From Halomonas sp. CH40 (lineage in GTDB: Bacteria; Pseudomonadota; Gammaproteobacteria; Pseudomonadales; Halomonadaceae), in contig CP112982.1 in assembly GCA_041875495.1 (NCBI GenBank), positions 3,286,001 through 3,350,000 on the forward strand: a stretch of DNA of 64,000 nucleotides, in the 5' to 3' direction. Position 1 is the stretch's first letter, and every line of letters starts with the position of its first letter. This document shows, piece by piece, positions 21,796-39,306 of the stretch. Below the pieces are notes generated by a model that saw only the letters and a program-made list of their open reading frames with translations, made no database searches and was not told the DNA's origin. A program made the position numbers and the translations under genes.

Positions 21796-22173
21796 TCATG
21801 CCGCTATTCCCAATCCAGCAAGCGCCCGGGTCAACTCATCCTGGGTGAAGGGTTTGGGCAGGATAGCGTTGGCGCCCGCCATCTTGGCGGAATCCAGCGA
21901 GAATGTTTTCGAAAGCGTGCGGCTGCCGCCAGACATCGCCAACACCGGCAGCTGCGGATAACGCTTATGGATCTCGACAACCCCTTCAACGCCGGTACGT
22001 CCAGGCATCACAATATCGGTGATTACCAGGGCAATCTCGCGATGCTGTTCCAGATGGGTCAACCCGCTTTCCACGCTCTCTGCGCTGTGTACGCGGTAGC
22101 CAAGGCGTTCCAGCATACGGGTCAGCATGCTGCGTAAGGCGCTATCGTCATCAATAATCAAGACTGTCGTCAT
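21796..22173 (-). CDS. Single-domain response regulator
   Basis: 125 aa receiver domain only. Acidic pocket 'IIDDDSALRSM', acceptor Asp in 'LVITDIVMPGRTGVEG', conserved Ser in 'LAMSGGSRTLSK' and Lys in 'ILPKPFTQDEL'. The ATG at 22173 has GGAG; the longer frame starting at 22197 overlaps the previous stop but begins without a good ribosome site. It is the last gene of the long minus-strand run and sits directly behind four histidine kinases. It closely resembles the response regulator at 26934-27323 ('AISGGQRALKS', 'ARMAGADQSLQKPFG'), suggesting duplication. Confidence 0.93.
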   Translation of the reverse strand: MTTVLIIDDDSALRSMLTRMLERLGYRVHSAESVESGLTHLEQHREIALVITDIVMPGRTGVEGVVEIHKRYPQLPVLAMSGGSRTLSKTFSLDSAKMAGANAILPKPFTQDELTRALAGLGIAA

Positions 22174-22193
22174 GGGCGCTCCTGTGGTGTGTC

Positions 22194-23756
22194 TCAACTA
22201 GGGGTGTATTCATGCACCAGCGGTAGTGTCAGGGTCATGTCCGTGCCCTCGCCGAGCTGGCTTTTGACGTGAATCCGCCCCTGCTGGCGCTGTATCAAGG
22301 TGTTGACAATGGCAAGCCCGAGCCCTGTGCCCTTGCCAGCACTACGGTTGGTGAAGAAAGGGGCAAATATCGTATCCAGATGTTCAGGGGCAATGCCCTG
22401 GCCGGTATCGCTGACCCGCAAACGGGCGGTGGCCCCTTGCTGCCAGCTGGAGAGGGTGAGCAAGCCACCGTCTGGCATCGCCTTGGCGGCGTTTTGGCAC
22501 AGATTGTCCATGACCCGCATCATCTGCGATGGGTGAATCAGGACAGTGACGTTGGCATCGTTATGCACCACACAATGAACATCGCTCGGCAGGCGTTTTT
22601 TCAAGCCCTCGGCATAGTTTTCCAGCCAGTCAGCAAGATTGACCGCCTGACATTCCAGCGGCTGCTCGCTGGCATAGAGCAACATTTCTTCAACCAGATC
22701 GGCACCGCGCTGACCCGCCATCTGAATCTGCTCAATATTGTCAAACAGCGTTGGCTGGGCCTGCAGCTCTTCGTTAAGCAGGTCAGCATGGCCGTTGATG
22801 ACCTGCAGGATATTATTGAAGTCATGGGCAATCCCGGCGGCCATCTGGCCTAGCGCACGCATCTTTTCCTGGTGATGAGCCTGCTGGCGGCGCTGGGCAA
22901 GCTCAGCTTCCTTGTGCTTCAGCGCGGTAATATCCATTACCGTCCCGACGATCTGCACCGTCTTGCCCGCCACTACCTGTGGTTGGCCGCTGACATCTAC
23001 CCAGACAGGGCGGCAGCCTGGCCCCTGGCTTTCCAGGGGCAGCTGAATATTGAAGGCGCATTGGGTATCGATACTACGGGTCAACTGCTCGCGTATCTGC
23101 TGCTCGGCTTGCGGCATGTAACGCCCTAACCAGACATCAATGTGGGCCTGACCTTCAACGCCAAAGATCGTATTGACGACTTCATTACACCAGAGATTGC
23201 CTGATTCAATATCCCAGTCGTAAAGGCCAATATCGGCGCTATTAACCGCCTGATGCAGGCGCTGATCATAGCGGCGCATCAAGCATCCCATTACCTGAGC
23301 GGCCAGGGTCGGCAGATGCTGCAACTGCGCGCGGGAGAGATCGCGTACCTTGTGATCAATCAGGCACAGGCTGCCAATCCGGTCACCGTCCGGGGTGATC
23401 AGGGGGGCACCCGCGTAGTAGCGGATATAGGGTTCCCCTGTGACCAGAGGATTATCGACAAAGCGCGGATCCTGCCAAGCATCCGGCACCTCGAAAATAT
23501 CTTCGCTTGCGGTGATGGCATAGCCGCAGAATGAAATATTACGCGCTGTTTCCATCAGCTCGGTGCCGGGGTGGCTTTTGAAACGCTGCCACTCCTTGTC
23601 GAGAAAGGCCACCAGCACTATCGGCACCTGAAAAAACGCCCGCGTCAGCGCCGTTAGCGCTTCGATCTCGGGATCCTGATCCATATCGCGCAGGGTGTAG
23701 CGCCACATGGCTGACAGGCGCTGGTCTTCATCATCTGGTAGCGGTGGTGCTTGCAT
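22194..23756 (-). CDS. Soluble sensor histidine kinase (GAF-PAS-HisKA-HATPase)
   Basis: 520 aa. An N-terminal GAF domain (about 25-165; 'IRYYAGAPLITPDGDRIGSL') is of the same type as the GAF of the EAL protein at 17918. A PAS-like segment follows (about 170-290), then the H-box 'GQMAAGIAHDFNNILQVING' near residue 310 and ATPase boxes 'VMDNLCQNAAKAM', 'VSDTGQGIAPEHLDTIFAPF' and '[11 protein letters not shown]'. No membrane segment, no receiver. It is the last of four consecutive kinases in the operon and is followed by a single-domain response regulator, the likely partner. Confidence 0.92.
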   Translation of the reverse strand: MQAPPLPDDEDQRLSAMWRYTLRDMDQDPEIEALTALTRAFFQVPIVLVAFLDKEWQRFKSHPGTELMETARNISFCGYAITASEDIFEVPDAWQDPRFVDNPLVTGEPYIRYYAGAPLITPDGDRIGSLCLIDHKVRDLSRAQLQHLPTLAAQVMGCLMRRYDQRLHQAVNSADIGLYDWDIESGNLWCNEVVNTIFGVEGQAHIDVWLGRYMPQAEQQIREQLTRSIDTQCAFNIQLPLESQGPGCRPVWVDVSGQPQVVAGKTVQIVGTVMDITALKHKEAELAQRRQQAHHQEKMRALGQMAAGIAHDFNNILQVINGHADLLNEELQAQPTLFDNIEQIQMAGQRGADLVEEMLLYASEQPLECQAVNLADWLENYAEGLKKRLPSDVHCVVHNDANVTVLIHPSQMMRVMDNLCQNAAKAMPDGGLLTLSSWQQGATARLRVSDTGQGIAPEHLDTIFAPFFTNRSAGKGTGLGLAIVNTLIQRQQGRIHVKSQLGEGTDMTLTLPLVHEYTPS

Positions 23757-23850
23757 AACGGACTACTCGAATTATGTGAGCGTGGGATGACGCGCACTGG
23801 GTACTACCCGTTGTTATATTGATTACTTGATTGATTACTCAACGTGCTCA

Positions 23851-24945
23851 TCAACCAGGCTGAACCAGCGGCAGCGTGACAGTCATACGGGTACCGCGCC
23901 TCAGTTGGCTTTCCACCTCGATACGCCCCCCATGGTTATCCAGAATACTGTCTACCACGGCAAGCCCCAGGCCATGGCCATCGCCTACGTCTCGCGTGGT
24001 GAAAAAGGGGTCGAAAATAGTATCAAGATGTTCACCTGCAATACCGCAGCCGTTATCGGTTATCCGAATACCGCCCCATTCACCTGCCTGCCAGGTGGCC
24101 AATATCAGCCGGGCATCTGGCTGTGCCGACATGGCTTTGACGGCATTGCCGCACAGGTTATCCATAACCCGTTCAAGCTGGTCGGCATTGGCCATCACCC
24201 AAGGTGCAACGGGCTGATTCACCTGCAAGACAAGCCCAGCAGGCAGCTGCGGGCGCAGCGCCTCGGCATAGCCTGCCAGCCAGGTGCTTAACTCAAGCGG
24301 CTCACGCGGCGGCGGTTGGTCGCGCACGTAAAGCATCATTTCATCCACCAGTTGGCGCCCGCGCTGGCCTGCACGGCCAATTTCACTGATGCTTTCAAGC
24401 AGTTGCGGCGCATCGCCAGCATCCTGCGCCAGCATTTCCGCATTGCCATTGATGGTTTGCAGTATGTTATTGAAATCATGCGCTATCCCCGCAGCCATCT
24501 GGCCAAGCGCGCGCATTTTACGGGTACGCTTGATTTCCATATAGCCATGGTAAAGCCTGGCCATAATGGCAACCTTGCTGATTAGCTGGTGCGGTTTAAC
24601 CGGTTTTGTCAGGTAATCATCGGCACCGCATTGGCTGGCCAGCTGCCAGTCTTCAGGCGTATCGTTGGAGGTCAGGATAATCACCGGATGCCAGCGCTGT
24701 TCAGGCGTTTCTGCCTCCCAGTCACGCAGCGTCCGGGTGGCGGCATAGCCATCCATACCCGGCAGCATGATATCCATCAGCACCATATCAATCGGTTCAG
24801 CGGCCAGTCGACGTAGCCCTTCTTCGGCGCTACCGGACGTGACCACCCGGTATCCCGCGCCTTCTAACAAGCGGCAGATCAGGCGCTGCTGAAGCGGGTC
24901 GTCCTCGACACTGAGCAGGGTTAATGGCGTAACCGGCGGCGTCAC
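23851..24945 (-). CDS. Receiver-histidine kinase (REC-HisKA-HATPase)
   Basis: 364 aa with a receiver at the N-terminus (about 8-125; acceptor Asp in 'MVLMDIMLPGMDGYAATR', 'YLTKPVKPHQL') followed directly by a kinase core: H-box 'GQMAAGIAHDFNNILQTING', 'VMDNLCGNAVKAM', 'ITDNGCGIAGEHLDTIFDPF', 'GHGLGLAVV'. REC-HK proteins are usually controlled by phosphorylation from another kinase, so it probably works in a relay with its neighbours. The start is GTG (24945), overlapping the upstream gene's TGA by 3 bp. The kinase core is very similar to the 22194 gene, indicating tandem duplication. Confidence 0.9.
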   Translation of the reverse strand: MTPPVTPLTLLSVEDDPLQQRLICRLLEGAGYRVVTSGSAEEGLRRLAAEPIDMVLMDIMLPGMDGYAATRTLRDWEAETPEQRWHPVIILTSNDTPEDWQLASQCGADDYLTKPVKPHQLISKVAIMARLYHGYMEIKRTRKMRALGQMAAGIAHDFNNILQTINGNAEMLAQDAGDAPQLLESISEIGRAGQRGRQLVDEMMLYVRDQPPPREPLELSTWLAGYAEALRPQLPAGLVLQVNQPVAPWVMANADQLERVMDNLCGNAVKAMSAQPDARLILATWQAGEWGGIRITDNGCGIAGEHLDTIFDPFFTTRDVGDGHGLGLAVVDSILDNHGGRIEVESQLRRGTRMTVTLPLVQPG

Positions 24946-25721
24946 TTGCCACTCTCACGGTGTATCACCATTAGATCAATTTCAGGGGCAGCTACCAGCG
25001 GCAAGCGTAAGATAACCTCAGTACCGCGACCCGGTGCGGTTTCAACCCGCACGTCACCACCGTGCTGAAAGGCACACATTTCAACCGTCACCATTCCCAG
25101 CCCGCGCCCTTGCCCAGGGGGCTTGGTGGTAAAAAAGGCATCAAAGATATAGGCTTGGGTGGTGCTGTCCATACCCATACCGTTATCACTGACACATAGC
25201 TTCAGGCAGGGGGTAGTGGCGTCAAAAGTGTCCTGAGTCATTGTGATAAGCAGCCGCGGCGCGGGCGTATCGCTCAAGGCATCCAATGCGTTGTCGATAA
25301 GGTGTGTCACAGCACGCGTGACAAAGGTGGTGTCGAGTTCCACCCGGGCGGGCGCCTGCTGATCAATGATTTCCAACGTCAGCGGCGCAGCCAGCGTCGC
25401 CATCTTTGCCTGGCAGCCCGCCAGAGTAGCCTCTAACAACTCGCATGGATCAAAGGCATTATACTCCAGCGCAAAACCACCGGCACAAAGCGTCATATCA
25501 TGGATCAGGTCAGCGGCCCGGTCACTGGCCAGATGTATCTGGCAAGAGTTTTCATAAGCCGGATGCTCCGGGTTCAACAGGTACTGGTTGAGCTCAGATA
25601 GGCCATGGATAGAACCCAACAGGTTATTGAACTCATGGGCAACGCCCGCCATCAGTGTCATCATGGCACGCATGTGCCCCTGGCGCTCTTGCCGGGCACG
25701 GGATATTACAGGTGTGTTCAT
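24942..25721 (-). CDS. Minimal soluble histidine kinase
   Basis: 259 aa; essentially only HisKA and HATPase. H-box 'MTLMAGVAHEFNNLLGSIHG' near residue 25, N-box 'AVTHLIDNALDAL', G1 'VSDNGMGMDSTTQAYIFDAF', G2 'GQGRGLGMVTV'. No input domain is visible, so its signal must come through a partner protein. GGAG precedes the ATG at 25721. The stop overlaps the GTG of the next kinase. Confidence 0.88.
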   Translation of the reverse strand: MNTPVISRARQERQGHMRAMMTLMAGVAHEFNNLLGSIHGLSELNQYLLNPEHPAYENSCQIHLASDRAADLIHDMTLCAGGFALEYNAFDPCELLEATLAGCQAKMATLAAPLTLEIIDQQAPARVELDTTFVTRAVTHLIDNALDALSDTPAPRLLITMTQDTFDATTPCLKLCVSDNGMGMDSTTQAYIFDAFFTTKPPGQGRGLGMVTVEMCAFQHGGDVRVETAPGRGTEVILRLPLVAAPEIDLMVIHRESGK

Positions 25722-25817
25722 AGCGTGTCTCCAACAAGGTGCCAGTCAACATACATAGATCACCATTGCACAGGATATATCGGTGTTTTTTATGTCATGT
25801 GTAGTCAAGACCCCTCC

Positions 25818-26915
25818 TTAACAGATTGCGCATTTGGATACATTCAGCGGCAGGGTGACCTTCATGGTCGTGCCCTCGCCAAGTGTGCTTTCAACGTCAA
25901 AACTGGCTGAATGGGTTTCGAGGAAATGCTTGACCTGCAGCATGCCAAGCCCTGTGCCGCCACGGCTGCTTTTGGTGGTAAACAATGGGGTAAACAGGTT
26001 TTGTTGCACTTCCTCGGACATACCACAGCCGTTGTCTTCGACCATCAGAGTCACCGCACCCGCTGCACCGACCTGGCTCAGCGTCAGTGTTACCTGAGGC
26101 CTTGGTGTTCCATGGGTGGCCTCACCGGCATTTTTCAGCAGATTGACCAACATCAGCAGCAGATAGGTTTCGTCAATATTAACGAAAACAGGCGTATCCG
26201 GAGTCGCAAGCTCCAGCATCAAGGGCTTGGGTAGCGTTTTACTCAGTACCGGTTGCATGGTGCGTAGTAGGCGCGTTAAGTCTAAACACTGTGGCGTCGG
26301 CGCCTGGAGGCCGCCACGCAGCCGCTTCACCATTGCTTCCGCTTCCTGGCAGGCATGCAGAATCGCCTGCAGGTTCTCGCGGCGGTCAGCCACCATGGTT
26401 TTTTCACCAAAGGTAACGAGATTGACCTCTGCCAGCCCGTGAATCACCCCTAGCATATTATTGAGCTCGTGGGTCGCCGAAGAGGCCAGTACGTACTGGC
26501 TTTCCAGAGTGACCAGCCGCTCGGTACTGGGCTCGATATCTTCGACGTTGTACCCCATGGACAAGTAGCCGATCACACTGGCATCCGGCGCGAACAGCGG
26601 CTGCACGGTGCGCTCCTCCACCCACAGGTCGCCATATTTGGTGCGATTGGTATAGCGCCCCACCCAGGCGCGACCTTCGGCCAGCGCGGTTTTTACCTTT
26701 TCATGGGTGCTGTAGGGCGTGTAGATGCTGCTCCAGGTTCTGGGATGCGCACCTTGCACTTCATCGGCACTGTAGCCAGAAATTTTACAAAAGGCCGGGT
26801 TGGCATACACCACTCGCTTGTCGACATTCGTCGCAACAACAAGGGCGTCGGAAAGATCAAACAGGTCACGCAACGAGAACTGCTTTTCCAGGCTCAGCGG
26901 TTCAGCGGTCGACAT
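25818..26915 (-). CDS. Soluble PAS histidine kinase
   Basis: 365 aa. An N-terminal PAS domain (about 15-130; 'VVYANPAFCKISGYSADEVQ', plus a PAC-like 'VIGYLSMGYNVEDI') resembles Aer-type PAS sensors. The H-box is slightly unusual, 'LASSATHELNNMLGVIHGLA', and the ATPase boxes are 'LVNLLKNAGEATHG', 'VEDNGCGMSEEVQQNLFTPL' and 'GGTGLGMLQV'. It is first of the four-kinase set, 18 bp after the response regulator at 26934-27323. The ribosome site is weak (GGGGG 8 bp upstream). Confidence 0.9.
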   Translation of the reverse strand: MSTAEPLSLEKQFSLRDLFDLSDALVVATNVDKRVVYANPAFCKISGYSADEVQGAHPRTWSSIYTPYSTHEKVKTALAEGRAWVGRYTNRTKYGDLWVEERTVQPLFAPDASVIGYLSMGYNVEDIEPSTERLVTLESQYVLASSATHELNNMLGVIHGLAEVNLVTFGEKTMVADRRENLQAILHACQEAEAMVKRLRGGLQAPTPQCLDLTRLLRTMQPVLSKTLPKPLMLELATPDTPVFVNIDETYLLLMLVNLLKNAGEATHGTPRPQVTLTLSQVGAAGAVTLMVEDNGCGMSEEVQQNLFTPLFTTKSSRGGTGLGMLQVKHFLETHSASFDVESTLGEGTTMKVTLPLNVSKCAIC

Positions 26916-26933: not shown

Positions 26934-27323
26934 TTACCCATTTTCAAGCGGCCTGCTGGCCAGCGCGATTTGCACGGCATCACGCAATGCGGCCAGGCCG
27001 AAAGGCTTCTGCAGCGACTGGTCGGCCCCGGCCATACGCGCCGAACCAAGCGCAAAGTTGCTTTTAAGCGCCCGCTGCCCGCCTGAGATGGCAATGACCG
27101 GCATAGTCGGCAGGTCTTCACGCAGCTTGAGGATGAACTCGGTACCATCCATCACCGGCATACAGATATCTGTGACCACTAGATCGACCTGCTGCTGTTC
27201 AGACAGGTTCAACGCCTGCTGGCCGTCAGCGGCTTCCAACACCTGGTGCTTGTCAACTGCCAGCATCTGCTTGACGGTGTAGCGCATCTGATCATCGTCA
27301 TCCACCAAAAGAATCTTGGCCAT
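26934..27323 (-). CDS. Single-domain response regulator
   Basis: 129 aa receiver. 'LLVDDDDQMRYTV', acceptor Asp in '[17 protein letters not shown]', 'AISGGQRAL' and 'SLQKPFGLAAL'. GGAGG lies 6 bp before the ATG. It sits between the membrane MCP/CheZ-like gene and the kinase set. Compared with CheY there is no aromatic switch of the usual kind visible, so it is more likely a phosphorelay partner of the soluble kinases than a motor-binding CheY. Confidence 0.92.
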   Translation of the reverse strand: MAKILLVDDDDQMRYTVKQMLAVDKHQVLEAADGQQALNLSEQQQVDLVVTDICMPVMDGTEFILKLREDLPTMPVIAISGGQRALKSNFALGSARMAGADQSLQKPFGLAALRDAVQIALASRPLENG

Positions 27324-27350: not shown

Positions 27351-28568
27351 TTAAAAAAGCTCAATTTTAGCGTTCGCCCCATTGCTAGGCTGGCCGCTGT
27401 TAGCATCAGCGGCTGTGCCTGCAAGGTTGGCGTGAGTGTGATGATGGGCATCTTTTTCAGCGTACTCAGCGCTGATCGCGGTCATCAGCTCCCAAGGGGG
27501 TGGAGCACCCTGTTCCAGCGCATCAAGAATCTCGCGTAAGGCGTCGTTGCGGGTGAGTATGCTGTCGCGGATGCGCTCGGTGATCTGGCGCGTCACATCC
27601 TGGAACTGGATATTGCCAAGGGCGTCATTGACTTCATTGGCCAACCCCTGATGATGCTGGGTGATGGCGCTGAGCAACATGCGGTAAAACAGCCGCATGT
27701 CGGTGTAGCCATCGTACAGCTCCTGGGTCTGTACCATTAGCCGTTTGACCTCGTGGATATCTTTCTGGATACGCTCTTCCATCTCAGGGCCGAAATAGCT
27801 TTCCACCGCTGCCTGTACCTCGTGAATCCCCTCTGTAATGGAACGCGCCGCTTCCGAGGAACTGGCCGCCAGGGCACGAACCTCCTTGGCGACCACTGCA
27901 AAGCTACGCCCGGCCTCACCAGCATGAGCCGCTTCAATCGCCGCATTCAGGGAGAGCAGCGCGGTGCGCTGGCTGATTTCCTGAATCGATTCAACCCGTT
28001 TATTCAGGTCGCTGATGCGGTTCCCCAGCAGGCGAAAGTCCTGGCGCTGCTCTTCAATATGTTCAGGCAGGGTGTGAATAAACTCGGCCAGCTCCTTGAT
28101 CACATAGCTGCTGTCTTCAAACGAACGCTGCATCTGCTCGCTTTGCTCACCCGCCTCACCCAGGTAAGTCATCAGCTCGTCGGCCAGGCCATTAACGCTG
28201 ACCAGGCTGTCTATCAGGGTGTTGGCAGCCTCTTCGGTAAAATCGATGGTTTCTGTCAGCCGATCCATGGCCAGCTGGTCATGTTCGGCCAGCGCATAGA
28301 CCCCCTGGGCCACCGGGGTGCTGCCTGTGCTATACGCGGCCTCGCGAGATGCCGCTGACGATGCCTTCGACATGGCTAGACGCTCCCTTGCCAGCCACAG
28401 CGCAACGGCCAGCGCTGCCCACACCAGCCCCCAGCCGAAGGTGGGTAACGGGGTGCGCTGAGCCAGCCAGCCCGATGCTGCCGACAGCAACGCCAGGACA
28501 GTCAACAACAGCGGTATGCTTAAACGCGGTATCTGCCGACGGCACCACCGCAATGACGCGCGCCACAT
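27351..28568 (-). CDS. Membrane-anchored MCP-like protein with C-terminal CheZ-like segment
   Basis: 405 aa. Two adjacent hydrophobic segments (about 18-38 and 44-60) form a hairpin anchor with no periplasmic sensor domain. The MCP signalling tip is at about 196-235 ('RTALLSLNAAIEAAHAGEAG', 'SFAVVAKEVRALA'). After a long helical stretch, residues 318-330 read 'GNIQFQDVTRQIT', very like the CheZ active-site helix (D-L-T-G-Q); Asp324 and Gln328 would be the catalytic pair. The protein ends in a disordered tail finishing KIELF, reminiscent of the CheY-binding tail of CheZ. Seen: both motifs. Inferred: a receptor that also dephosphorylates CheY. No free cheZ gene is in the window. Confidence 0.8.
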   Translation of the reverse strand: MWRASLRWCRRQIPRLSIPLLLTVLALLSAASGWLAQRTPLPTFGWGLVWAALAVALWLARERLAMSKASSAASREAAYSTGSTPVAQGVYALAEHDQLAMDRLTETIDFTEEAANTLIDSLVSVNGLADELMTYLGEAGEQSEQMQRSFEDSSYVIKELAEFIHTLPEHIEEQRQDFRLLGNRISDLNKRVESIQEISQRTALLSLNAAIEAAHAGEAGRSFAVVAKEVRALAASSSEAARSITEGIHEVQAAVESYFGPEMEERIQKDIHEVKRLMVQTQELYDGYTDMRLFYRMLLSAITQHHQGLANEVNDALGNIQFQDVTRQITERIRDSILTRNDALREILDALEQGAPPPWELMTAISAEYAEKDAHHHTHANLAGTAADANSGQPSNGANAKIELF

Positions 28569-30023: not shown

Positions 30024-32729
30024 TTATACGTCTCCTTGAGCGCTGGCCAGAGCCGGTGGCGACAGCAAGGCCGCCAGGTTGATGATCAGCAATACCCGGC
30101 CATCGCCCATCAGGGCGCTGCCGGAATACAACGAGTAACCGGCCATGATGCCTTCCATGGGCTTTTGCACGATATCCATCCCCTGGCGGAAGTCATCAAT
30201 CACCAGCCCCACCTGCTCACCGTTGTGTTCAACAATCAGCACGGCCTCTTCCTGGCCCGCCTCGGCGGCTTCCAGGCCGAGCAGTGAGCGCATGCGCTTG
30301 AGCGGAATCAGCTTGTCGCGCAGAACGATATTTTCGCTGCGCTTGATGCGATGGATGGCACTGGCGGGCACCCGCACGGTTTCGCGAATGCTGGTCATGG
30401 CGATGCCATAGTCCTGCTCGCCAATCTTCACCATCATCACCCGCGCTACCGCCATGGAAAGCGGTAGCAGAATACGCAGCGTGGAGCCCTTACCAGGCTC
30501 GCTGGCCACGCTGATGGTGCCCCCTGAGGCGGCAACGGCGGTGCGCACTGCATCCATCCCCACGCCCCGCCCGGAAATATCCGAGACTTGTTCAGCCGTC
30601 GACAGGCCGGCGGCAAAGATCAGCTGCAGCGCTTCCTGATGGGTGATGGAGTCAAGCTTCTGTTCATCGATCAGCCCGCGCTGATAGGCTTTGTGCTTGA
30701 GCTTTTCGGCATCAATACCGCGTCCGTCGTCGATCACTTCAATCAGCACCTGATCATCCAGCGCCTGGGCGCGCAGCTTGATCATGCCTTTGGCGGGCTT
30801 ACCCGCCGCCTGGCGCTCAGCCGGGCTTTCCAGGGCATGATCCAGGCTGTTACGCACCAGATGCACCAGCGGATCGGCCAGATGATCGACCACGTGCTTG
30901 TCGGCCTCGACGTCTTCGCCTTCAAGCACCAGCTCGGCGTTTTTGTCGAGCTTGCGGGTCATATCGCGCACCAGCCGTGGGAAGCGCTGGAAAACCACTG
31001 ATAGCGGCACCATGCGCGCGCCCATCACCGCCTGCTGCATACGGTCAGCGATGCGGTCAATATTGGCGTAGTGGCTGGTCAGTTCCTTGGCAACCGCCTT
31101 GGACGTCATGCCTTCGCTGGCATGCTTGGCCAGAAATGGCAGTGCATTTTTGGCCACCACCAGCTCACCGGCCAGGGTCATCAGCTCATCAATGCGCTGT
31201 TGTTCAACCCGAATGGTATGGCTTGGCGCATGGGCTTTTTCAGCTTTTTCAACAGGCTCAGAAGAGCGATCTGGCAAGGCGCTGGGCGCAGGTTTGCTCG
31301 CTGCCAGCGGCGGCGCAGCGGCAGACGTGGGCTGCGCTGGCGGCACCAGCCTGCCTTCCAGCCAGCTGGCCAGAGGCTGGCTGTGCTGCTGTTCCCGCGC
31401 CGCTTGCAGGGCCGCCTCAAAACCGGCTCCCGGTGCCTGTTCCAAGTGCCCCAGCATACGCCGTATTACCTCTTCCACTGCGGCCAGGCGCGGGGCGAAA
31501 AGCGCTTCGCTTGCCGAGGTTTGCAACACTTCCACTTGCTGCTGGAGTACCTGATAGACCATGGCGATATGATCATCAGCTGCCTCAAGAGTCGGCGGCT
31601 GCTCTGACGATGCCGTTTGGCTCAACGGGCCTGCCTGACGCGGCTCACGAGGCTGGTAATCATCGCCAGTGGCAAGGGCATCAAGCAGGCCGAGAATCAC
31701 TTTCTGCGGTGGCGCAGGCAGGCGCAGGGCCAGCGCCAGCCAGTGGACAATACTGTGTTGATAAAGGCGTTCACCGCACAGTTCACGCAGCGGAGCAAGC
31801 CGCTGGCCCAGCGCCTGCCAGTCGGCGGCTTCCGCCAGCGGCAGGGCCTCATCAGCAAAGGGCACAAACAGCTCATCGTCGCTTTCGCCCTGTTCACCTT
31901 CTGGGTGGATCAGCACCTCAGCGGGCAGCGTGGAGACCTGAAGCGATTCTGCCAGGTAACGAAAATGATGCTGAACAGCCACTTCGTCAGCCAGCGCCAG
32001 CAGCCTGATATCCAGCACGCAGCGAAACGGATCCAGTGCTTCCAGGAGTGGCCATGGCTCGCGCGGGGTGATGTGGAGCGCTTGCAGGCCGTCCAGGGTC
32101 TTGACGCTTTGCAGCGGGTCGTGGCCCTGGAAGAAACACTCTTCAGGCGGCGTAAAGACCACTTCCAGCAGAGAGGTTTCAGCCTTGGCAAGATAGCCCT
32201 CAAACAGTGCCCGGCGGCGGGCATCAGGCAGCTCACGCACCCACAGCGGTGCGCTGGCAGCAGGTAATGTGACGGCCGCTGCCGTATCAGGCGCGATGTG
32301 AACACTTGGTTCAGGCGTGGCGGTGGGCGCTCCGCCGGGGGCGGCCTGAAACGCCTGATTCAAGGCACCAAGCTGCTCAGCCAGCTGCACCGGGGCCGAG
32401 GCCGGTAGCGCCTCGCTGGCTTCGATGCTGTCAAGCCACTGGGTGGCGACATCCAGGGCATCGAAGATGCAATCGGTCAGTTCCGGCGTCAGCGCCAGGG
32501 TGTGGTCGCGCACCTTATCCAGACCATCTTCAATCACATGCAGCAGGCGGCTGAAATCACTCAGGTTGTCAAATAGCCCCGATGCGCCCTTGATGGTATG
32601 CATGGCGCGAAACAGCTCATCCAGCAGTTCGCTGTCAGCAGGTGTCTTTTCAAGCGCTAATAGGCAGCGGCTGGCCACTTCAAGGTTATCCCGGGCCTCG
32701 TTGATAAACGACTGCAGCAAGGGGTTCAT
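30024..32729 (-). CDS. cheA: Chemotaxis-type histidine kinase CheA
   Basis: 901 aa. P1/Hpt domain at the N-terminus with the phospho-His44 in 'AMHTIKGASGLF'. A long middle region (about 165-470) is unlike the CheY-binding P2 of E. coli CheA and includes 'FFQGHDPLQSVKTL' and 'LDPFRCVLDIRLLALA'. P3 starts at 'TIRVEQQRIDELMTLAGELV', the kinase domain has 'HLVRNSLDHALESP', 'IEVIDDGRGID' and 'DISGRGVGMDAVRTAV', and P5 is a CheW-like domain. No C-terminal receiver. The size and middle region resemble CheA of alternative (non-flagellar) systems. It overlaps the preceding response regulator by ATGA. Confidence 0.95.
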   Translation of the reverse strand: MNPLLQSFINEARDNLEVASRCLLALEKTPADSELLDELFRAMHTIKGASGLFDNLSDFSRLLHVIEDGLDKVRDHTLALTPELTDCIFDALDVATQWLDSIEASEALPASAPVQLAEQLGALNQAFQAAPGGAPTATPEPSVHIAPDTAAAVTLPAASAPLWVRELPDARRRALFEGYLAKAETSLLEVVFTPPEECFFQGHDPLQSVKTLDGLQALHITPREPWPLLEALDPFRCVLDIRLLALADEVAVQHHFRYLAESLQVSTLPAEVLIHPEGEQGESDDELFVPFADEALPLAEAADWQALGQRLAPLRELCGERLYQHSIVHWLALALRLPAPPQKVILGLLDALATGDDYQPREPRQAGPLSQTASSEQPPTLEAADDHIAMVYQVLQQQVEVLQTSASEALFAPRLAAVEEVIRRMLGHLEQAPGAGFEAALQAAREQQHSQPLASWLEGRLVPPAQPTSAAAPPLAASKPAPSALPDRSSEPVEKAEKAHAPSHTIRVEQQRIDELMTLAGELVVAKNALPFLAKHASEGMTSKAVAKELTSHYANIDRIADRMQQAVMGARMVPLSVVFQRFPRLVRDMTRKLDKNAELVLEGEDVEADKHVVDHLADPLVHLVRNSLDHALESPAERQAAGKPAKGMIKLRAQALDDQVLIEVIDDGRGIDAEKLKHKAYQRGLIDEQKLDSITHQEALQLIFAAGLSTAEQVSDISGRGVGMDAVRTAVAASGGTISVASEPGKGSTLRILLPLSMAVARVMMVKIGEQDYGIAMTSIRETVRVPASAIHRIKRSENIVLRDKLIPLKRMRSLLGLEAAEAGQEEAVLIVEHNGEQVGLVIDDFRQGMDIVQKPMEGIMAGYSLYSGSALMGDGRVLLIINLAALLSPPALASAQGDV

Positions 32730-33124
32730 CGGGCACCTCCCTCAGCGCTAAGCGGTTCAGGCGGCGTCAGCAAAAGCGTTACCAGCTGCTGAAGGTACTC
32801 GGGTTCCGTCGGCTTGATGAGGTACAGGTTGGCACCGGCGCTAAAGGCCCGCGCGCGGTCATGGTACTGCGCTTCGGTGCTGATCATGACAATCGGCACC
32901 TGGCCCAGACGGGCATCACCGCGCACGGCCTGTACAAAACGGTAGCCGTCCATCTTGGGCATGTTAACGTCCACCAGCATCAGGTCTATGTCTGCGCTGG
33001 TCATACGCTCCAGGCCTTCCACGCCGTTTTCCGCCTCAATGACGGCATGGCCCAGCGCTTCCATAAGTTCGCGGTGGTAGAGGCGAACCGTGACGGCATC
33101 ATCGACGATCAATACGGTTTTCAC
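32726..33124 (-). CDS. Single-domain response regulator (GTG start)
   Basis: 132 aa receiver. 'VLIVDDAVTVRLYHRELM', acceptor Asp in 'LMLVDVNMPKMDGYRF', 'MISTEAQYHDRA', 'LYLIKPTEPEYL'. The GTG at 33124 is preceded by a perfect AAGGAG seven bases upstream and gives a normal receiver length; the alternative ATG at 33190 would add 22 residues with no ribosome site inside cheR. The gene overlaps the end of cheR by 26 bp and cheA by 4 bp. It likely accepts phosphate from this CheA. Confidence 0.92.
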   Translation of the reverse strand: MKTVLIVDDAVTVRLYHRELMEALGHAVIEAENGVEGLERMTSADIDLMLVDVNMPKMDGYRFVQAVRGDARLGQVPIVMISTEAQYHDRARAFSAGANLYLIKPTEPEYLQQLVTLLLTPPEPLSAEGGAR

Positions 33125-34013
33125 CCGGCACTCCTTGAGGTTGGTTGAGATGGCCACTGACAGGCTTTTGATAGGCCAGCGCCTGGGCAAATTTGCGCAC
33201 GGTAAATAGCGACGAAATGCGGCTCATGGATTCCGAGTGGCCAAGAAAGATCAGCCCACCGGGTGTGAGCGCATCAAAGAATACTTCTGCGGCGCGTCGC
33301 CGTGCGGCGTCGTCAAAGTAGATCAACAGGTTGCGGCAGAAGATAATGTCGAAATCGCGGTAGCTGCGCGTCTGTTCCAGGTCAGACAGATTGACCTTGG
33401 TGAAGGCAATAGCATCGCGCACCTCAGCATTCAGCTGCCAGCGCTCGCCTTCCAGCGCGGTAAAGTAGCGCTTGCGGATGCGGTCATCGACGTGCATCAG
33501 CGAGCGCTTGCTGTAAATCCCGGCCTGGGCCTTGGCCAGCACTCGGGTATCAATATCCGAGGCGACAATTTCAACATCCGTATTGGCCAGCGCCGGCCAG
33601 TGCTCCAGCAGCATCAGGGCAATGGAATAGGGCTCTTCACCGGTGCTTGAAGGTATCGACCAGATCTTCAGCGTCTCGCCGTGCCCACGCGCTCGGCGGC
33701 GTTCTTCCAGCGCTTCGCTGACCAGACATTCAAACTGGTACTTTTCGCGCATGAAGTAGGTCTCGTTGACCGTCATCACGTTCACCAGGTGCTGGAACTC
33801 ATCGCCCCTGGCCTCAAAGCGCACAAAGGTAAAGTAGCTGCGAAAGCTGTCATGGCCGGTCATACGCATGCGTTCAAACAATCGCTTATCGACGAAATAG
33901 CGCTTGCTGTCTTCGAAGAACAGCCCAGTGCGGCGGTAGAAATAATCGCGAAAGCGGGCAAATTCTGCTGGCGTTATCGGCTGGGTGGCCGTGTGTCGAA
34001 CCGTTTCAACCAT
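33099..34013 (-). CDS. cheR: Chemoreceptor methyltransferase CheR
   Basis: 304 aa from the chosen ATG (34013; AAGGA about 9 bp upstream; in-frame ATGs also at 34022 and 34031). N-terminal helical CheR domain ('MTVNETYFMREKYQFECLV'), then the SAM-dependent methyltransferase fold. SAM motif I reads 'IWSIPSSTGEEPYSIALML' where most CheR proteins have W-S-A-G-C-S-T-G-E-E, so the Ala-Gly-Cys is replaced by Ile-Pro-Ser. 'IVASDIDTRVLAKAQAGIY', 'FDIIFCRNLLIYFDD' and 'LGHSESM' are conserved. It methylates glutamates on the MCPs of this cluster. Confidence 0.94.
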   Translation of the reverse strand: MVETVRHTATQPITPAEFARFRDYFYRRTGLFFEDSKRYFVDKRLFERMRMTGHDSFRSYFTFVRFEARGDEFQHLVNVMTVNETYFMREKYQFECLVSEALEERRRARGHGETLKIWSIPSSTGEEPYSIALMLLEHWPALANTDVEIVASDIDTRVLAKAQAGIYSKRSLMHVDDRIRKRYFTALEGERWQLNAEVRDAIAFTKVNLSDLEQTRSYRDFDIIFCRNLLIYFDDAARRRAAEVFFDALTPGGLIFLGHSESMSRISSLFTVRKFAQALAYQKPVSGHLNQPQGVPGENRIDRR

Positions 34014-34680
34014 GCGGTGCATCCTTGTCATCGGCAGGAGGATCCATACGCTCCAGCGCTATCCGGGTGGCAAAACGCAGATAGGTGGGCAGGTCGGGGC
34101 GCGCCAGCAGCCGTTCCAAGGCAGGCCGCATCTCGGCGGTGCCCAGCTCGGTGGCCCGGTCTACGGCGGCACCCAGCACGTTGGCATGGGATTCCTGCAT
34201 CAACACCCGGGTGATCCACGCCGGTGCCTGCGGATGCGGTAGCGCCCGTAGAATATCCAGCGCAAAGATGCGCACATCGGCATCGTCATCTTCCAGTAAC
34301 TGATCCAGATGCGGTGCTACCTGCTCCGGTAGTGACTGCAGAAGGTCAATGGCTTCGTTGCGCAGCACGGCACTTTCCGAACGCAGCAAAGTGATCAGGC
34401 CGTGAGTGACGGTGGCAGAAGCCTCAGAGGACGGCGCGCGGTGGGCAATCTGCTCCAGGCTGCAGAACAGGGCTTCGCGCACACTTTCATCATTCTCGAC
34501 TTCCAGCGCCGCCAGTAAGTGTTCGGCTGTCTCGGGGGCGTTGCCCAGGTCGCGGGCTGCCCAGCGGCGGATGGGAGCCTGTTCAGCGCTGAGTTCCACC
34601 AGCAGATGGGCAGCGTCACGCGGGGCGTGGCGTAGTTCCTGGGGATCGGGCTTTGCTGTATCGGGACGTTTTAGCGCCAT
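34006..34680 (-). CDS. HEAT-repeat protein in the chemosensory operon
   Basis: 224 aa, soluble and entirely helical. Several degenerate HEAT/ARM-type repeats are visible ('PIRRWAARDLGNAPETAEHL', 'SVREALFCSLEQIAH', 'VLRNEAIDLLQSLPE', 'DVRIFALDILRALPH', 'NVLGAAVDRATELG'). Such repeats make protein-binding solenoids. Position between cheB (19 bp gap) and cheR (8-bp overlap) suggests a scaffold for the adaptation enzymes or the array; HEAT proteins are known beside other alternative Che systems. GAGGT precedes the ATG. Exact function unknown. Confidence 0.85.
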   Translation of the reverse strand: MALKRPDTAKPDPQELRHAPRDAAHLLVELSAEQAPIRRWAARDLGNAPETAEHLLAALEVENDESVREALFCSLEQIAHRAPSSEASATVTHGLITLLRSESAVLRNEAIDLLQSLPEQVAPHLDQLLEDDDADVRIFALDILRALPHPQAPAWITRVLMQESHANVLGAAVDRATELGTAEMRPALERLLARPDLPTYLRFATRIALERMDPPADDKDAPHG

Positions 34681-34699
34681 GCTACACCTCGTATGATTG

Positions 34700-35779
34700 T
34701 CATCCCGCCGCGCTGACCCAATCGATCAACTGCTCGGCTATCGCCTCCTGCGGCAACACCGCAGTGGCACCCTGGCGCTCAACGAGCGCACGCGGCATGC
34801 CGTACACCACGGCACTGTCTTCGTTCTCGGCAATCGTCAACGCACCGCGACGATGCGCCTGAGCCATTTCTTCGGCACCGTCGTCGCCCATGCCGGTCAG
34901 TTGTACGCAGATCAGCTCGCGGTCACGAAACACCTCGCGGGCGGACGCCATCAAGCGGGTAATACTCGGATGCCAGAGATGCCCGTCTGAGGCGGGTATG
35001 CTGATCATGCGTACATTACCCGCGCGTTTGACAATACGCGCATCGGCATCGCCACGGGCGATATACACATGGCCCGGCTCCAGCAGCGCCGGGCCACGCA
35101 CTTCCCTGACCTCCAGCGCGCACTGACGATCAAGGCGCTCGGCAAATGGCTTGGTGAAATGCGCGGGCATATGCTGGGCCACGACAATCGGCACCGGAAA
35201 ATCTTCTGGCAGCTCACGCAATATGCTTTCAAGAGTACTTGGCCCGCCGGTCGAGACGCCGACCACCATCAGCTTGTAGCGGCAGCCCAGGCTGTGTCTC
35301 AGCGAGCGGCGCGGCGCTGGCGGCTGGGCATCACGCGCTTGGCGACGCTGCACCTTGCTGGCAATCGGGCGCCGCTGCTGGGCTGCCGCACGGACTTTTG
35401 CCTGCAGTTCCTGCTCCACATCGCGCAGGTTGAGCGAGACGGTGCCGTCGGGTTTGTTGACGTAGTCAAAGGCGCCCAGTTCCAGCGCTTCAAAGGTGGC
35501 AAGTGCGCCTTTTTCGGTCAGCGACGAGACCATGATCACCGGCAGGGGGGATTCCACCATGATGTGGCTCAGGCAGGTCAGCCCATCCATGACCGGCATA
35601 TTGATATCCAGCGTGACCACGTGCGGCGCAAAGCTTTTCAGCTGCTCAAGGGCGTCCTGGCCATCTCGCGCCGTCGCGGTGATGATGTCGCCGACGCTTT
35701 CCAGCATCTGCCTGAGCTGACGCCGCATCAGCGCCGAATCATCCACGATCAATACCTTGAGCGGCTCGTCTAACGGCAT
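34700..35779 (-). CDS. cheB: Chemotaxis methylesterase/deamidase CheB
   Basis: 359 aa. N-terminal receiver with acceptor Asp58 in 'VVTLDINMPVMDGLTCL' and C-terminal methylesterase with the Ser-His-Asp triad visible: 'GVSTGGPSTL', 'VAQHMPAHFTKPFAERL' and 'TGMGDDGAEEM'. It removes methyl groups from MCP glutamates when phosphorylated by CheA. The frame also allows a GTG at 35785, but the ATG at 35779 is preferred. It lies 18 bp after the triple-CheW gene. Confidence 0.95.
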   Translation of the reverse strand: MPLDEPLKVLIVDDSALMRRQLRQMLESVGDIITATARDGQDALEQLKSFAPHVVTLDINMPVMDGLTCLSHIMVESPLPVIMVSSLTEKGALATFEALELGAFDYVNKPDGTVSLNLRDVEQELQAKVRAAAQQRRPIASKVQRRQARDAQPPAPRRSLRHSLGCRYKLMVVGVSTGGPSTLESILRELPEDFPVPIVVAQHMPAHFTKPFAERLDRQCALEVREVRGPALLEPGHVYIARGDADARIVKRAGNVRMISIPASDGHLWHPSITRLMASAREVFRDRELICVQLTGMGDDGAEEMAQAHRRGALTIAENEDSAVVYGMPRALVERQGATAVLPQEAIAEQLIDWVSAAG

Positions 35780-35797
35780 AAACACATATCCTGCAGG

Positions 35798-37369
35798 TTA
35801 GGTGCTGGCACCTGAAATGTCGGCGTTGTCACCGGCGTCGGCGCTGTCCAGCAGCGCCTGCTGTTCATCGTGGCTCATCAGGGCATCGATATTCAGCAGC
35901 TGGATCAGCTGGTTGTCCGGCGTGCGCACGACCTCGCCCAACAGCCGCTGCTGGGCTGCGGAAAGGCGCGGTGCCGGTTCGATAGTGTGGCGCTGCAAGC
36001 GGCGCACTTCGCTGACGGTATCGACCACAAAGCCGGTGGTCACGCCATCAAGATTAAGCACCAGGATGCGCTGACGCTCATTATTGGTGATCCGCGACAG
36101 GCCAAAACGGGCGCGCATATCCACTACAGGCAGCACGCTACCGCGCAGATTGATCATCCCTTCGATAAAGTCCGGGCTCTTCGGCACATGATAGAAACGC
36201 TCGGGCAGGCGGGTGATTTCCTGTACCTGTTCAATCGAAATGCCGTATTGCTGATCGTTCAGGGTGAAGACCACCAGTTGGCACTCATCGGAAATTTCAT
36301 CGACAGCAGATTCTTCTGACATGACATCCTGCTCCTGGTGTGAGTTCGACGGATCCTGGCGATTGTCCAGCGCCAGGGCGCCCGCGTCGGCGAATAACGG
36401 GTCGGTTGCCAGCAGGCTAAGCAGCCTCTGCCCTTCATCCAGACGACAGATGGCGGCGACATCCTGCATATCAGGGTCACGGGCCAGCACCTCGGGCACC
36501 GGCTCCAGGCGTTTTTCTTCCAGGCGAACCACTTCCTTGACCTGATCGACGGCCAGCGCCAGGCGCACACTGCCACGCCGCAGAACAACCACTACCTGGT
36601 CGCTGGCAACCTCAATCTGCGCCAGCGCCAACAGGGTGCGCAGCGAAAACAGCGGGAATGTCTTGCCACGCCGCGACATCAGCCCCAGCACATGCGGCGG
36701 CGCCTTGGGCGTGTGGCTAATCTGCTCGGGGTAACGCAGCACTTCCTGAACATCGCCAAGGCGGAAGGCATACTCCTGGCCATCAACCTCAATGCTGACC
36801 AGCTGGGTCAACTCTTCACTCTCGCCGTTGGCGGCCAGCGCCTGATTGGCCGCGCTGCCCACACTGGCCAGGGCGCCCGCCACGCTGCTGTCATCGCCGC
36901 TGAATTCGCGCGCCATCAGCGCTTCCAGGTCAAGCAGCTGCAAAAGGCTCTGCTGCTCGCCTTCCAGGCGGTAGATACCGGTCAGCAGTTCAGTGTCCAC
37001 ACTGCCAATATCGGCCGCCGCTTCAATGCGCTGGCTGTCCAGCGTCAGCACCCGGTCAACGTGATCCACCACCATGCCCACGCTCTGGCCCATGTCCAAC
37101 AGCAGCACGCGGCTGGCGTCGTCGATCTCAGTGCGCCCCATGCCCAGCAGCGCACGCAGATCAATAATCGGCGAAACGCTGCCCCTAAGCCCGGCCAACC
37201 CCAGCAGCGACGGGGGAGTTAACGGCACCTCAACCGGCGTCTGATAGCGCATGATCTCCAGCACCTGGGACATAGGCAGCGCGAAAAGCTCGTCTCCCAA
37301 TGCAAAACTGACGACCTGCACCAGAGCATCTTCCGCGCTGGAAGCGTCTTGTTGCGGTATTGCAGCCAT
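35798..37369 (-). CDS. Triple CheW-domain coupling protein
   Basis: 523 aa made of three consecutive CheW domains, about 15-160, 190-335 and 360-510. Each has the signature opening and loop: 'VVSFALGDELFALPMSQVLE', 'LVSIEVDGQEYAFRLGDVQE' and 'LVVFTLNDQQYGISIEQVQE', with 'GLAGLRGSVSPIIDLRALLG', 'GLMSRRGKTFPLFSLRTLL' and 'GMINLRGSVLPVVDMRARFG'. CheW links receptors to CheA. No separate single-domain cheW exists in the cluster, so this protein must do all coupling. The Ala/Ser-rich linkers suggest flexible beads on a string. GGAGG precedes the ATG. Confidence 0.95.
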   Translation of the reverse strand: MAAIPQQDASSAEDALVQVVSFALGDELFALPMSQVLEIMRYQTPVEVPLTPPSLLGLAGLRGSVSPIIDLRALLGMGRTEIDDASRVLLLDMGQSVGMVVDHVDRVLTLDSQRIEAAADIGSVDTELLTGIYRLEGEQQSLLQLLDLEALMAREFSGDDSSVAGALASVGSAANQALAANGESEELTQLVSIEVDGQEYAFRLGDVQEVLRYPEQISHTPKAPPHVLGLMSRRGKTFPLFSLRTLLALAQIEVASDQVVVVLRRGSVRLALAVDQVKEVVRLEEKRLEPVPEVLARDPDMQDVAAICRLDEGQRLLSLLATDPLFADAGALALDNRQDPSNSHQEQDVMSEESAVDEISDECQLVVFTLNDQQYGISIEQVQEITRLPERFYHVPKSPDFIEGMINLRGSVLPVVDMRARFGLSRITNNERQRILVLNLDGVTTGFVVDTVSEVRRLQRHTIEPAPRLSAAQQRLLGEVVRTPDNQLIQLLNIDALMSHDEQQALLDSADAGDNADISGAST

Positions 37370-37395
37370 ACTCTGCCCTCCTGTCGGCGCGGCGA

Positions 37396-39306
37396 TCAGT
37401 TGCTCTGCATCTCATCGGCGATGGAGGCAATTTCCTCAACTGATGCAGCCAGTTCTTCAATGCCCTGGCTTTGCTGGTCAGCAGCGGTCGATGCTTCACG
37501 CACACTTGAAGCGGACTGCTCCGCGGCAGTGGCAATCTGCTCCATGCCTTTTTTGCTTTGAGTCACTGCGACGATAATCTCGCTGCCGGTTTCATCCACG
37601 CGGGTGGCGGCATCCTGCAGTTCGCGGCGCAGTTTGCCCAGCGCATCAATATCGTTGAGCACCTGTTCAGTCCGCGCCACGTCGGCTTCCACGGTAGCCA
37701 GCGAAGCGTCCAGGTCACTGGCAACCGCGTCGGCCTGGTCCTGAATACGGCGCACCAGATCCTGCACCTGTTCAACATTGGTAGAGGCGTCATCAGCAAG
37801 GTTCTGGATATCTCCGGACACCACCGCAAAGCCCTTGCCGTATTCCCCGGCACGGGCGGCTTCCACCGCGCCGTTCACCGCCAGCATGCCGGTCTTGATG
37901 GCAATATTGGCGATGGCATTGGCAATCTTGTCGATCTGGCGGTTGAGGCGCTGCACATCGCGCACGTTTTCCAGGTTGCGCCGCGACGCGGCCAGGTCGT
38001 CGCGGATCGCTTCAAACATGGTGTTGACGTTGGTCTGGTTCTCGTCAAGCTGCTCGCTGATCGCGGTGATGCTGGTAGACGCCTGATTGGCGCGCTTATC
38101 GCTGACCTTGACCGCCTCTTCAATCTGGCTGATCGCTGCCAGGCCCTGCTCTGCCGCTGAGGCGCCCTGCTCGGCACCGGCCAGAATTTCCTTCAACGCG
38201 GTTCCCACTTCCCGGGCGCCGCGGTTGAGCTCTTCAATCGAAGCGGACAGTTCTTCTGCGGTTGAGGCGACGTTCTCGGCGCTCTTGGCCACATCGGTGC
38301 TGCCACGCAGTTCATCAGCCACTTCTTCAAGCTCGGTCGCCGCTTCTTCAGCACCGTGCAGCGCCCGGCCCTGTTCAGACAGCGAGTTCACCACTTCTTC
38401 GGCAGCGGCGGCCTGCTGATCAGACGCTGAGGCCACGCTTTCAGACCCCTGCTCAAGGTCGTCCACTGCGCGGCTGACTTCCTCAACGCTTTCATTGACA
38501 TCCCGGGCGCCGCGATTGACGTTGCGGATTTCCTTGAGAATGTCGTCGAAGCCTTTCTCAATGACGTCGCCGTTTTTAATCTGCTCTTTAGCTGAGGCTG
38601 CTGAATGCTTGACGGCACTGCCTGCCGCGTCGCTCTTCTCGCGAATCTTGTTGACCAGATCGGTGATTTCGGTGGCGCTACGCTCAGCGCCTTCTGCCAG
38701 GGTACGCACCGTATCGGCGACGACCGCAAAGCCCTTGCCGTGACGCCCGGCACGCCCTGCCTCGATAGCCGCATTGAGCGCCAGCAGGTTGGTCTGGTCA
38801 GCAATCCGCATGACCTGGCGCGCAGCTTCATTGATCTCACCGGCCTGCTCTTCCAGGCGTTCCATCAATCCCTGAGAGCTTTCCTGACGCTTTGCAGTGG
38901 CACGCAGGCTTTCCACCAGCGAGAGAATTTTCTCACCGGCTTCATCAGCGCGCTGATTGGCCTGTTCGGCCAGTTTGCGCGCCGAGACCGCTGCTTCGGA
39001 TTGCATTTTGACCTGTTGGGCAATACTGCGTACCGCGGCCAGGCTTTCCTGGCTCGCCGATGACCCCTGTTCCGCACCGGAGGCAATTTCCTGCACCGCT
39101 TCACTCAGCTGATCCCGCGCCCGGCCGGATTCCGTAATACCCGCCGCCAGCTGCTGGGCGGCACTGGCCACACGCTCGGCAGACTGTTGCTGCTTAGCCA
39201 GCGTGCGGGCACGCCGACGGTGCTGCTCTGTCGCCCGGGAGGCGTCATTCTCTTGGGGAAGGGACGTAGAAGACGTGCGGGTCGTCATACTCTTTTTCAG
39301 GGCCAT
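37396..39306 (-). CDS. Cytoplasmic methyl-accepting chemotaxis protein with two signalling tips
   Basis: 636 aa, no membrane segment and no recognisable sensor domain; nearly all coiled coil. Two MCP hairpin tips are present about 300 residues apart: one near residue 170 ('[20 protein letters not shown]', '[16 protein letters not shown]') and one near 468 ('[20 protein letters not shown]', '[16 protein letters not shown]'). Repeats of '[13 protein letters not shown]'-type and '[13 protein letters not shown]' before each tip indicate internal duplication. The N-terminal 40 residues are basic and Ser/Thr-rich. The ATG at 39306 has AAGGTGG at proper spacing; the one at 39312 is too close to it. 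First gene of the che operon. Confidence 0.93.

Follow-up and report, generated by a model that had tools for sequence, protein, structure and literature searches.

Chemosensory clusters of class F9 encode a rare and poorly understood kind of sensor array. The class is defined by DosM, a receptor with two signalling tips, together with a triple CheW protein (PMC9321776, PMC7534058), and full clusters of this class were reported in 64 of 2781 species (PMC9321776). In Vibrio cholerae the F9 array is described as a two-layered cytoplasmic plate held by DosM; the published tags of the corresponding cluster I are VC1394 for a receptor, VC1397 for CheA, VC1402 for the triple CheW protein and VC1403 for DosM (PMC7534058), and its gene order is given as cheY1, cheA1, cheY2, cheR1, cheB1, cheW (PMC11940527). 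Arrays of class F9 and of ancestral class F7 have been imaged, but it is unclear what they control, and they include a conserved accessory receptor without known purpose (PMC7534058, PMC7184735). Here we describe a cluster located at positions 21796-39306 of a 64,000-nucleotide stretch (hereafter the window; contig CP112982.1, positions 3,286,001 to 3,350,000) from Halomonas sp. CH40, whose genome of 3.67 Mb is of the Vreelandella type (Halomonadaceae). It is an F9 cluster with DosM, a triple CheW protein (CheW3) and CheA, with its own ParA gene and with a tail of four histidine kinases. It also encodes a membrane-bound methyl-accepting chemotaxis protein (MCP), here called MCPz, which we consider likely, with slightly more than even confidence, to terminate signalling by removing the phosphate from the CheY encoded next to it. 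While the F9 layout was known already, the main new point is a CheZ signature in MCPz.

The preliminary description of this DNA had stated that the cluster matches none of the textbook flagellar, Pil-Chp or Wsp layouts. A reading of the cluster as matching no known layout was not borne out, since DosM and CheW3 are the published signature of F9 and the CheA groups with those of other loci containing DosM and CheW3. CheW3 was searched in overlapping sets of genomes with cut-offs of 1e-60 or 1e-40, namely within the family (201 genomes, 7 matches including the host's own), the class (369 genomes, 11 matches), the phylum (398, 9), the genus (82, 3) and the families of genomes G316 (4, 2) and G823 (98, 3). 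There were 24 other F9-positive genomes, and regions were taken from 20 of them, with G459, G554 and G733 (fragments) and G1016 omitted, as was locus L019, which is from the same genome as L007. This search of the neighbourhood across genomes found the same gene order, DosM-CheW3-CheB-HEAT-CheR-CheY-CheA-STAS-(ParA)-CheY-MCPz, in other F9 loci, and the cluster is beyond chance because of this recurrence. Besides the window, 17 F9 loci had a match to HEAT and 16 a match to STAS, some of the matches being weak (29-30 bits) and the remaining contigs short or divergent. The closest full-cluster genome among the regions taken was that of Vreelandella massiliensis (L007), with a CheA 70% identical to that of the window. 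When CheA was classified by phylogeny, the 17 F9 CheAs, including that of the window, were separated by a branch with 100/100 support from 17 others drawn from the loci of this survey, consisting of 16 from McpA-type clusters and the host's own flagellar-type CheA. Seven of the eight ParA loci were in an eight-row branch (98/94) together with one locus lacking ParA; locus L024, nested among the nearest CheA relatives of the window, has neither ParA nor kinases. The recurrence across F9 loci and the CheA tree therefore identify HEAT and STAS as regular F9 parts and ParA as a marker of one F9 branch.

Other classes were considered and rejected. Ancestral F7 was dropped: the F7 layout has no HEAT or triple CheW (PMC7184735), neither CheD nor a receptor of the PAS/HAMP (Aer2-like) type is encoded among the 17 genes, and the CheA lies apart from the CheAs that neighbour McpA-type genes. 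The Wsp and ACF classes were dropped, as the CheA has no C-terminal receiver, the CheR has no TPR and there is no diguanylate cyclase among the 17 genes. Chemosensory cluster 2 of Halomonas was dropped as a match because it is Wsp-like.

The 17 minus-strand genes with the domains listed in the preliminary description were confirmed by open reading frame (ORF) coordinates and Pfam, from DosM through RRd, with no gap wider than 96 bp. Junctions range from an overlap of 26 bp between HEAT and CheR to gaps of 94 bp (HK3-HK4) and 96 bp (HK1-HK2), and the size of the CheR-CheYa overlap varies with the start chosen. The kinase block follows MCPz after 27 bp, and the upstream neighbour of DosM ends approximately 300 bp away. 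Promoter- and terminator-like sites were rarer across the locus than in shuffled sequence, and co-transcription of the 17 genes is therefore predicted from their spacing alone. It was correctly noted before that cheV, cheD, free cheZ, flagellar and pilus genes are missing from the 17 by Pfam, no CheZ being found above the cut-off. The recurrence of the N-terminus MALKK among relatives favours a DosM start at 39306, as given in the preliminary description, over the first ATG, which is at 39312. The genes, all on the minus strand, are as follows.

37396..39306, minus: DosM, soluble receptor with two signalling tips (two MCPsignal stretches), without a hydrophobic or transmembrane (TM) segment; no sensor domain recognised
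35798..37369, minus: CheW3, three CheW domains in a single protein (three CheW stretches, 2.1e-95)
34700..35785, minus: CheB, methylesterase with receiver (Pfam)
34006..34680, minus: HEAT-repeat protein (HEAT_2, 2.3e-12), with a MALKR start similar to that of DosM
33099..34031, minus: CheR methyltransferase (Pfam)
32726..33190, minus: CheYa, CheY-type receiver (Response_reg, 3.2e-25); true start probably about 22 codons within the ORF, by alignment
30024..32729, minus: CheA kinase with Hpt, dimerisation, HATPase and CheW domains (four Pfam domains; F9 grouping)
29752..30021, minus: STAS-fold protein of 89 amino acids (Pfam STAS_2 below cut-off, and predicted structure)
28959..29747, minus: ParA-type ATPase (AAA_31, 2.7e-30) with the deviant Walker A motif KGGTGKT
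28570..28947, minus: CheYb, CheY-type receiver (Pfam), 1 bp from MCPz by coordinates
27351..28568, minus: MCPz, with two N-terminal TM segments, one tip, an FQDxxxQ block (D324, Q328) and a C-terminal IELF; predicted phosphatase of phosphorylated CheY (CheY-P)
26934..27323, minus: RRc, single receiver (Pfam)
25818..26915, minus: HK1, PAS histidine kinase (Pfam, including HATPase)
24942..25721, minus: HK2, histidine kinase, no sensor domain recognised (Pfam, including HATPase)
23851..24945, minus: HK3, receiver followed by kinase, a layout like that of CheS3 (Pfam, including HATPase)
22194..23756, minus: HK4, kinase with an N-terminal GAF-like domain, GAF being below cut-off (Pfam, including HATPase)
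21796..22197, minus: RRd, single receiver (Pfam)

In CheA, approximately 400 residues without a Pfam match separate the Hpt domain from the dimerisation domain.

The remark that one gene product was "MCP/CheZ-like" proved to be the most productive part of the preliminary description, since MCPz contains the CheZ signature FQDxxxQ, with Pfam CheZ itself remaining below its cut-off. In MCPz, a hydropathy scan and alignment showed a pair of TM segments, a single MCP tip and an extended C-terminal portion. Its positional counterpart in the V. cholerae cluster, VC1394, has been reported as a 24H receptor that includes a TM region (PMC7534058). DXXXQ is the phosphatase motif of CheZ, with a conserved FQ ahead of it (PMC7750401). 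The pattern [FY]QDxxRQ was present in 14 of the 15 F9 candidates for MCPz, the remaining one being L038, which was omitted from the MCPz counts because its best match lacks the motif and orthology is not evident. Across these 14 orthologues, the block at residues 320-329 (IQFQDVTRQI in the window) had a mean entropy of 0.63 bit, compared with 0.5-0.8 bit in the tip and 1.5-2.8 bit in the other blocks printed (residues 60-399). The columns outside the tip that were identical in at least 13 of the 14 were T111, E112, A241, Q321, Q323, D324, R327, Q328, Y369 and I402-E-L-F405, and FQDxxxQ is the sole strongly conserved internal block of MCPz outside the tip. The CheZ proteins of relatives have QDFQDLTGQ or, in three cases, QDYQDLTGQ. 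Among the best 120 of 795 homologues of MCPz, 107 had the motif behind the tip, 97 an IELF-like end and 94 both, and part of the 13 misses of the motif was caused by the tip pattern used. The invariance of the motif in a 45-sequence alignment (A2) is not independent evidence, as the sequences were picked after the motif had been seen. None of the 14 other host receptors whose tip was read has FQDxxxQ, although one of these 14 has a stray LHDHPVQ far ahead of the tip. In all 13 F9 loci for which both genes were listed, including the window, CheYb adjoins MCPz within 21 bp, and the two are also adjacent in L030. A short MCP fragment with an internal stop, likely a gene remnant, lies elsewhere in the host genome (G000:C1:3257343-3257534).

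A hidden Markov model (HMM) built from CheZ only gave 23.4 bits for MCPz of the window and at most -1.0 bit for 15 control rows, representing 14 receptors with DosM counted twice. Such scores are comparisons and are not proof of homology. The D and Q of the model coincided with the motif in 10 of the 14 F9 orthologues (11 by the script, which included L033, where they fall elsewhere), in 15 of the 17 receptors of McpA type and, as counted by the script, in 96 of the 120 listed homologues, compared with 1 of the 15 controls, a stray case.

The motif also occurs in receptors of a different type of Che cluster. A search of 229 genomes with a homologue that has the variant FQDRVSQ gave a match in 17 of them, and 17 regions were examined. 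The D and Q of the motif were kept in all 17 receptors, here termed McpA-type, and the motif was found in none of 19 other receptors of these clusters. The McpA-type gene adjoins cheY in 14 regions and cheB in three, and a CheZ query had no match in any of the 17 stretches. From this context we infer that the 17 receptors belong to the published McpA-like family, whose members accompany early F7 systems in clusters without cheZ, as set out in PMC7184735, in which their conserved C-terminus is said to have an "unclear biological role". According to the same source, McpA-like receptors are lost at stage 3 of F7 evolution, when F6 keeps its cheY/cheZ pair but otherwise decays; this pair joins F7 at a later point. 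The predicted phosphatase role would explain why McpA-like receptors are lost at the stage where the F6 cheY/cheZ pair is kept. We propose, at near even odds, that receptors of the MCPz type are membrane-tied CheY-P phosphatases. A wider proposal, put forward tentatively and at somewhat less than an even chance, is that the McpA-like and VC1394-like receptors of F9 and ancestral F7 form an unrecognised family of membrane-anchored receptor-phosphatases, which would unite the tip of an MCP and the active site of CheZ within a single helical bundle, terminate signals in Che systems without CheZ, and have been lost in enteric-type F7 once the CheY/CheZ of F6 took over. Among the open-licence papers listed by literature searches, no title or abstract opening announced such a combination of receptor and CheZ, or the motif.

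Several results weigh against a phosphatase function of MCPz. Membership of the Pfam CheZ family was rejected, the score being 22.6 bits against a cut-off of 30.7 bits with the best stretch off the motif, and the comparison of CheZ and MCPz by hhalign was not significant (probabilities of 0.24% and 0.09%). The medians of the CheZ-only HMM were low, at 0.7 bit for F9, 4.7 for McpA-type receptors and 6.0 for homologues, with -4.5 for controls, and the CheZ set, comprising the 27 usable loci out of 30, was selected by the very motif pattern in question. When the MCPz model was used in Foldseek, the best 50 of 442 matches were MCPs, coiled coils and other long helices, with no CheZ among them, and the model, with a predicted template modelling score (pTM) of 0.38 and low confidence at the C-terminus, is unable to show a CheZ fold; a sequence search of the PDB returned MCPs, one designed component (E 0.0017) and then noise. 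The C-terminal IELF differs from the tail of CheZ. The host genome has two free CheZ genes (G000:C1:127010-127648 and G000:C1:2313162-2313779), one lying close to the genome's other CheA cluster (about 121-127 kb) and the second far away, which could serve this CheY. Among the McpA-type regions, CheA is present in 16 of 17 and L098 shows only cheY; FED replaces FQD in three receptors, which are the three beside cheB; and McpA of Pseudomonas aeruginosa was reported in the F6 array (PMC7184735). The cluster could be an unremarkable member of F9 with MCPz as a plain receptor, in which FQDxxxQ and IELF are docking or structural elements, for instance for CheR, CheB or CheY, without a catalytic role. 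This would agree with the normal tip of MCPz, the MCPs at the top of the Foldseek matches and the weak CheZ profile match, given that motif conservation may also reflect docking, and with the reported role of P. aeruginosa CttP/McpA in trichloroethylene taxis (PMC7534058). However, the block has the F, Q, D and Q of CheZ at identical spacing, and its gene is the neighbour of cheY in most McpA-type and all listed F9 loci, in stretches where no CheZ was found. We regard the plain receptor as the less probable explanation, although one with a considerable chance of being correct, and prefer MCPz as a phosphatase.

The proposals for the kinase tail and for ParA have to be weighed in the same manner. 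The array had been proposed to be wired to a kinase network, and this stood in part: a receiver, kinases and a receiver are kept in this order by the two nearest CheA relatives, with three kinases in L007 and two in L020, and one or more kinases occur in the same-strand downstream run of 7 of the 15 F9 loci with a visible end (the window, L007, L020, L023, L029, L031 and L034), but the other eight have none. This count omits L026, L027, L030, L036 and L037, whose contigs are short or unclear, and L038; in L029 the kinase comes after five other genes, and L035 has a receiver only. The block could be an independent two-component network located downstream by chance, in line with the eight loci lacking kinases and with the presence in the block of related pairs of its own, as HK3 and HK4 are 48% identical over 254 residues and RRc and RRd 39% over 109, which suggests that both pairs arose by duplication. 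We consider this unlikely, because the block is on the same strand after a gap of only 27 bp that has no terminator-like site on the minus strand, because its frame is kept in L007 and L020, and because there is a precedent in Rhodospirillum centenum, where CheA3 phosphorylates the receiver of CheS3 (PMC3868531). HK1-HK3 have no TM segment by hydropathy scan, and HK4 has one hydrophobic stretch at residues 33-52. ParA occupies the slot after STAS and before cheY in eight F9 loci (the window and seven others), while L038 has ParA elsewhere, and no ParB domain was found among the 17 genes by Pfam. For the self-positioning array of the preliminary description there is a precedent in PpfA of Rhodobacter, a ParA of a cytoplasmic array, and ppfA-like genes are known in che operons (PMC2829493, PMC3964821), but positioning itself we can only infer. 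Alternatively, ParA may serve another cargo or assist STAS and HEAT in assembly without positioning the array. A basic start of DosM is seen in loci both with and without ParA, and a ParA partner was sought through the net charge carried by the 30 N-terminal residues of ten operon proteins, compared between seven loci with and seven without ParA, an approach that was rejected as it revealed no clear ParA-linked difference and no ParA-specific partner peptide, the comparison being crude and several ORF starts uncertain. Nevertheless, this explanation is rather improbable in view of the fixed place of ParA, with seven of its eight loci in one supported CheA branch, the lack of a ParB domain and the PpfA precedent; a role of ParA in positioning the array is preferred.

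The label STAS given in the preliminary description was correct although weak by sequence: Pfam STAS_2 scored 18.8 bits against a cut-off of 29.2, and 7 of 16 members matched at E up to 1, but the predicted structure, with a mean predicted local distance difference test score (pLDDT) of 90, resembles antagonists such as RsbV and SpoIIAA. Residues H45 and Q50 do not vary among 16 loci, and the usual phospho-serine position is S, T or A; a conserved phospho-serine switch in F9 STAS is therefore unlikely. Kinases with an RsbU_N domain were noticed beside a single receiver downstream of two F9 clusters with STAS (L029:15849-16922 and L031:13106-14266), which hints at a partner-switch link with STAS. 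A start resembling MAL(V)KK was found in 17 of 19 DosM rows and 14 of 17 HEAT rows, compared with zero to two rows for each of nine other operon proteins, although the same pattern was also used for choosing among possible starts within 45 residues. This start occurs with and without ParA. The starts of DosM and HEAT in the window use different codons, which favours a peptide over a DNA signal, and one reading is that the start of DosM and of the unrelated HEAT protein may be a common docking peptide.

Upstream of the cluster on the same strand (39615-49163) are genes for an EAL-HDOD protein, hybrid histidine kinases (40956-42773, by sequence, and 43506-45920), a FIST protein (45853-47004) and a receiver-GGDEF-EAL protein (47097-49163), and an EAL-HDOD gene is likewise located upstream of the F9 cluster in L007. 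On the plus strand, a GAF-GGDEF-EAL gene and a PAS-kinase-receiver (hybrid kinase) gene (17918-21785) point at the cluster end, the latter stopping 10 bp from RRd. Farther away, a region of lower G+C content (0.52) encodes, at 56311-57993, a protein that combines Schlafen AlbA_2 and RecG-type C-terminal domains.

In the mechanism that we propose, DosM and CheW3 would assemble into a cytoplasmic plate of two layers like that of V. cholerae, with CheA in both faces and with CheR and CheB tuning it, and ParA would place this plate or share it out. CheA would phosphorylate CheYa and CheYb, and MCPz, with its TM hairpin in the membrane, would be a local sink of CheY-P, so that the kinase source at the plate and the phosphatase sink at the membrane would be spatially separate. 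An MCPz acting as the off-switch of the array would explain the absence of a CheZ gene from clusters of this kind. A further target of CheA might be the receiver of HK3, by analogy with CheA3 and CheS3, a wiring proposed because the N-terminal receiver of HK3 is like that of CheS3, and the kinases would then merge internal signals with those of the array.

If the receptor is indeed a CheY-P phosphatase, three puzzles would meet, namely the resetting of systems without CheZ, the travelling of McpA-like genes with cheY, and their loss when CheZ arrives, and a single receptor molecule could set both kinase activity and phosphate removal. The ParA-bearing branch of F9 is a compact case for the positioning of cytoplasmic arrays, and the tails of two, three and four kinases form a series for how a Che core gains partners.

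The closest known system is cluster I of V. cholerae (VC1394-VC1403), which shares the double-tip receptor, the triple CheW protein, a CheA between two CheYs, CheR, CheB and a TM receptor at the end. As far as published tags and order permit a comparison (PMC7534058, PMC11940527), its gene order agrees with that of the window, and its numbering leaves room for one unnamed gene each at the positions of STAS and HEAT; the window adds ParA and the receiver-four-kinase-receiver tail. Cluster 2 of Halomonas titanicae (Wsp-like, PMC5907407) is likewise a second Che system in Halomonadaceae, but the cluster in the window differs from it in having no diguanylate cyclase, no TPR in CheR and no receiver in CheA. 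The McpA-like/CttP receptors of F7 clusters share with MCPz the single tip, FQDxxxQ, a hydrophobic C-terminal tail and the usual cheY neighbour, whereas they belong to another cluster type and their tail is mostly xxFF instead of IELF. CheZ has in common with MCPz the FQDxxxQ signature and the position beside cheY; in contrast, MCPz sits in the membrane and has the tip of an MCP, and the profile-profile match between the two is not significant. The PpfA/TlpT system of Rhodobacter sphaeroides resembles the cluster in that the operon of its cytoplasmic array has a ParA-type ATPase but no ParB (PMC2829493, PMC3964821). The CheA3-CheS3-CheY3 system of R. centenum shares a kinase with an N-terminal receiver and a single receiver associated with a Che cluster (PMC3868531), while the window has four kinases and a CheA without a receiver of its own.

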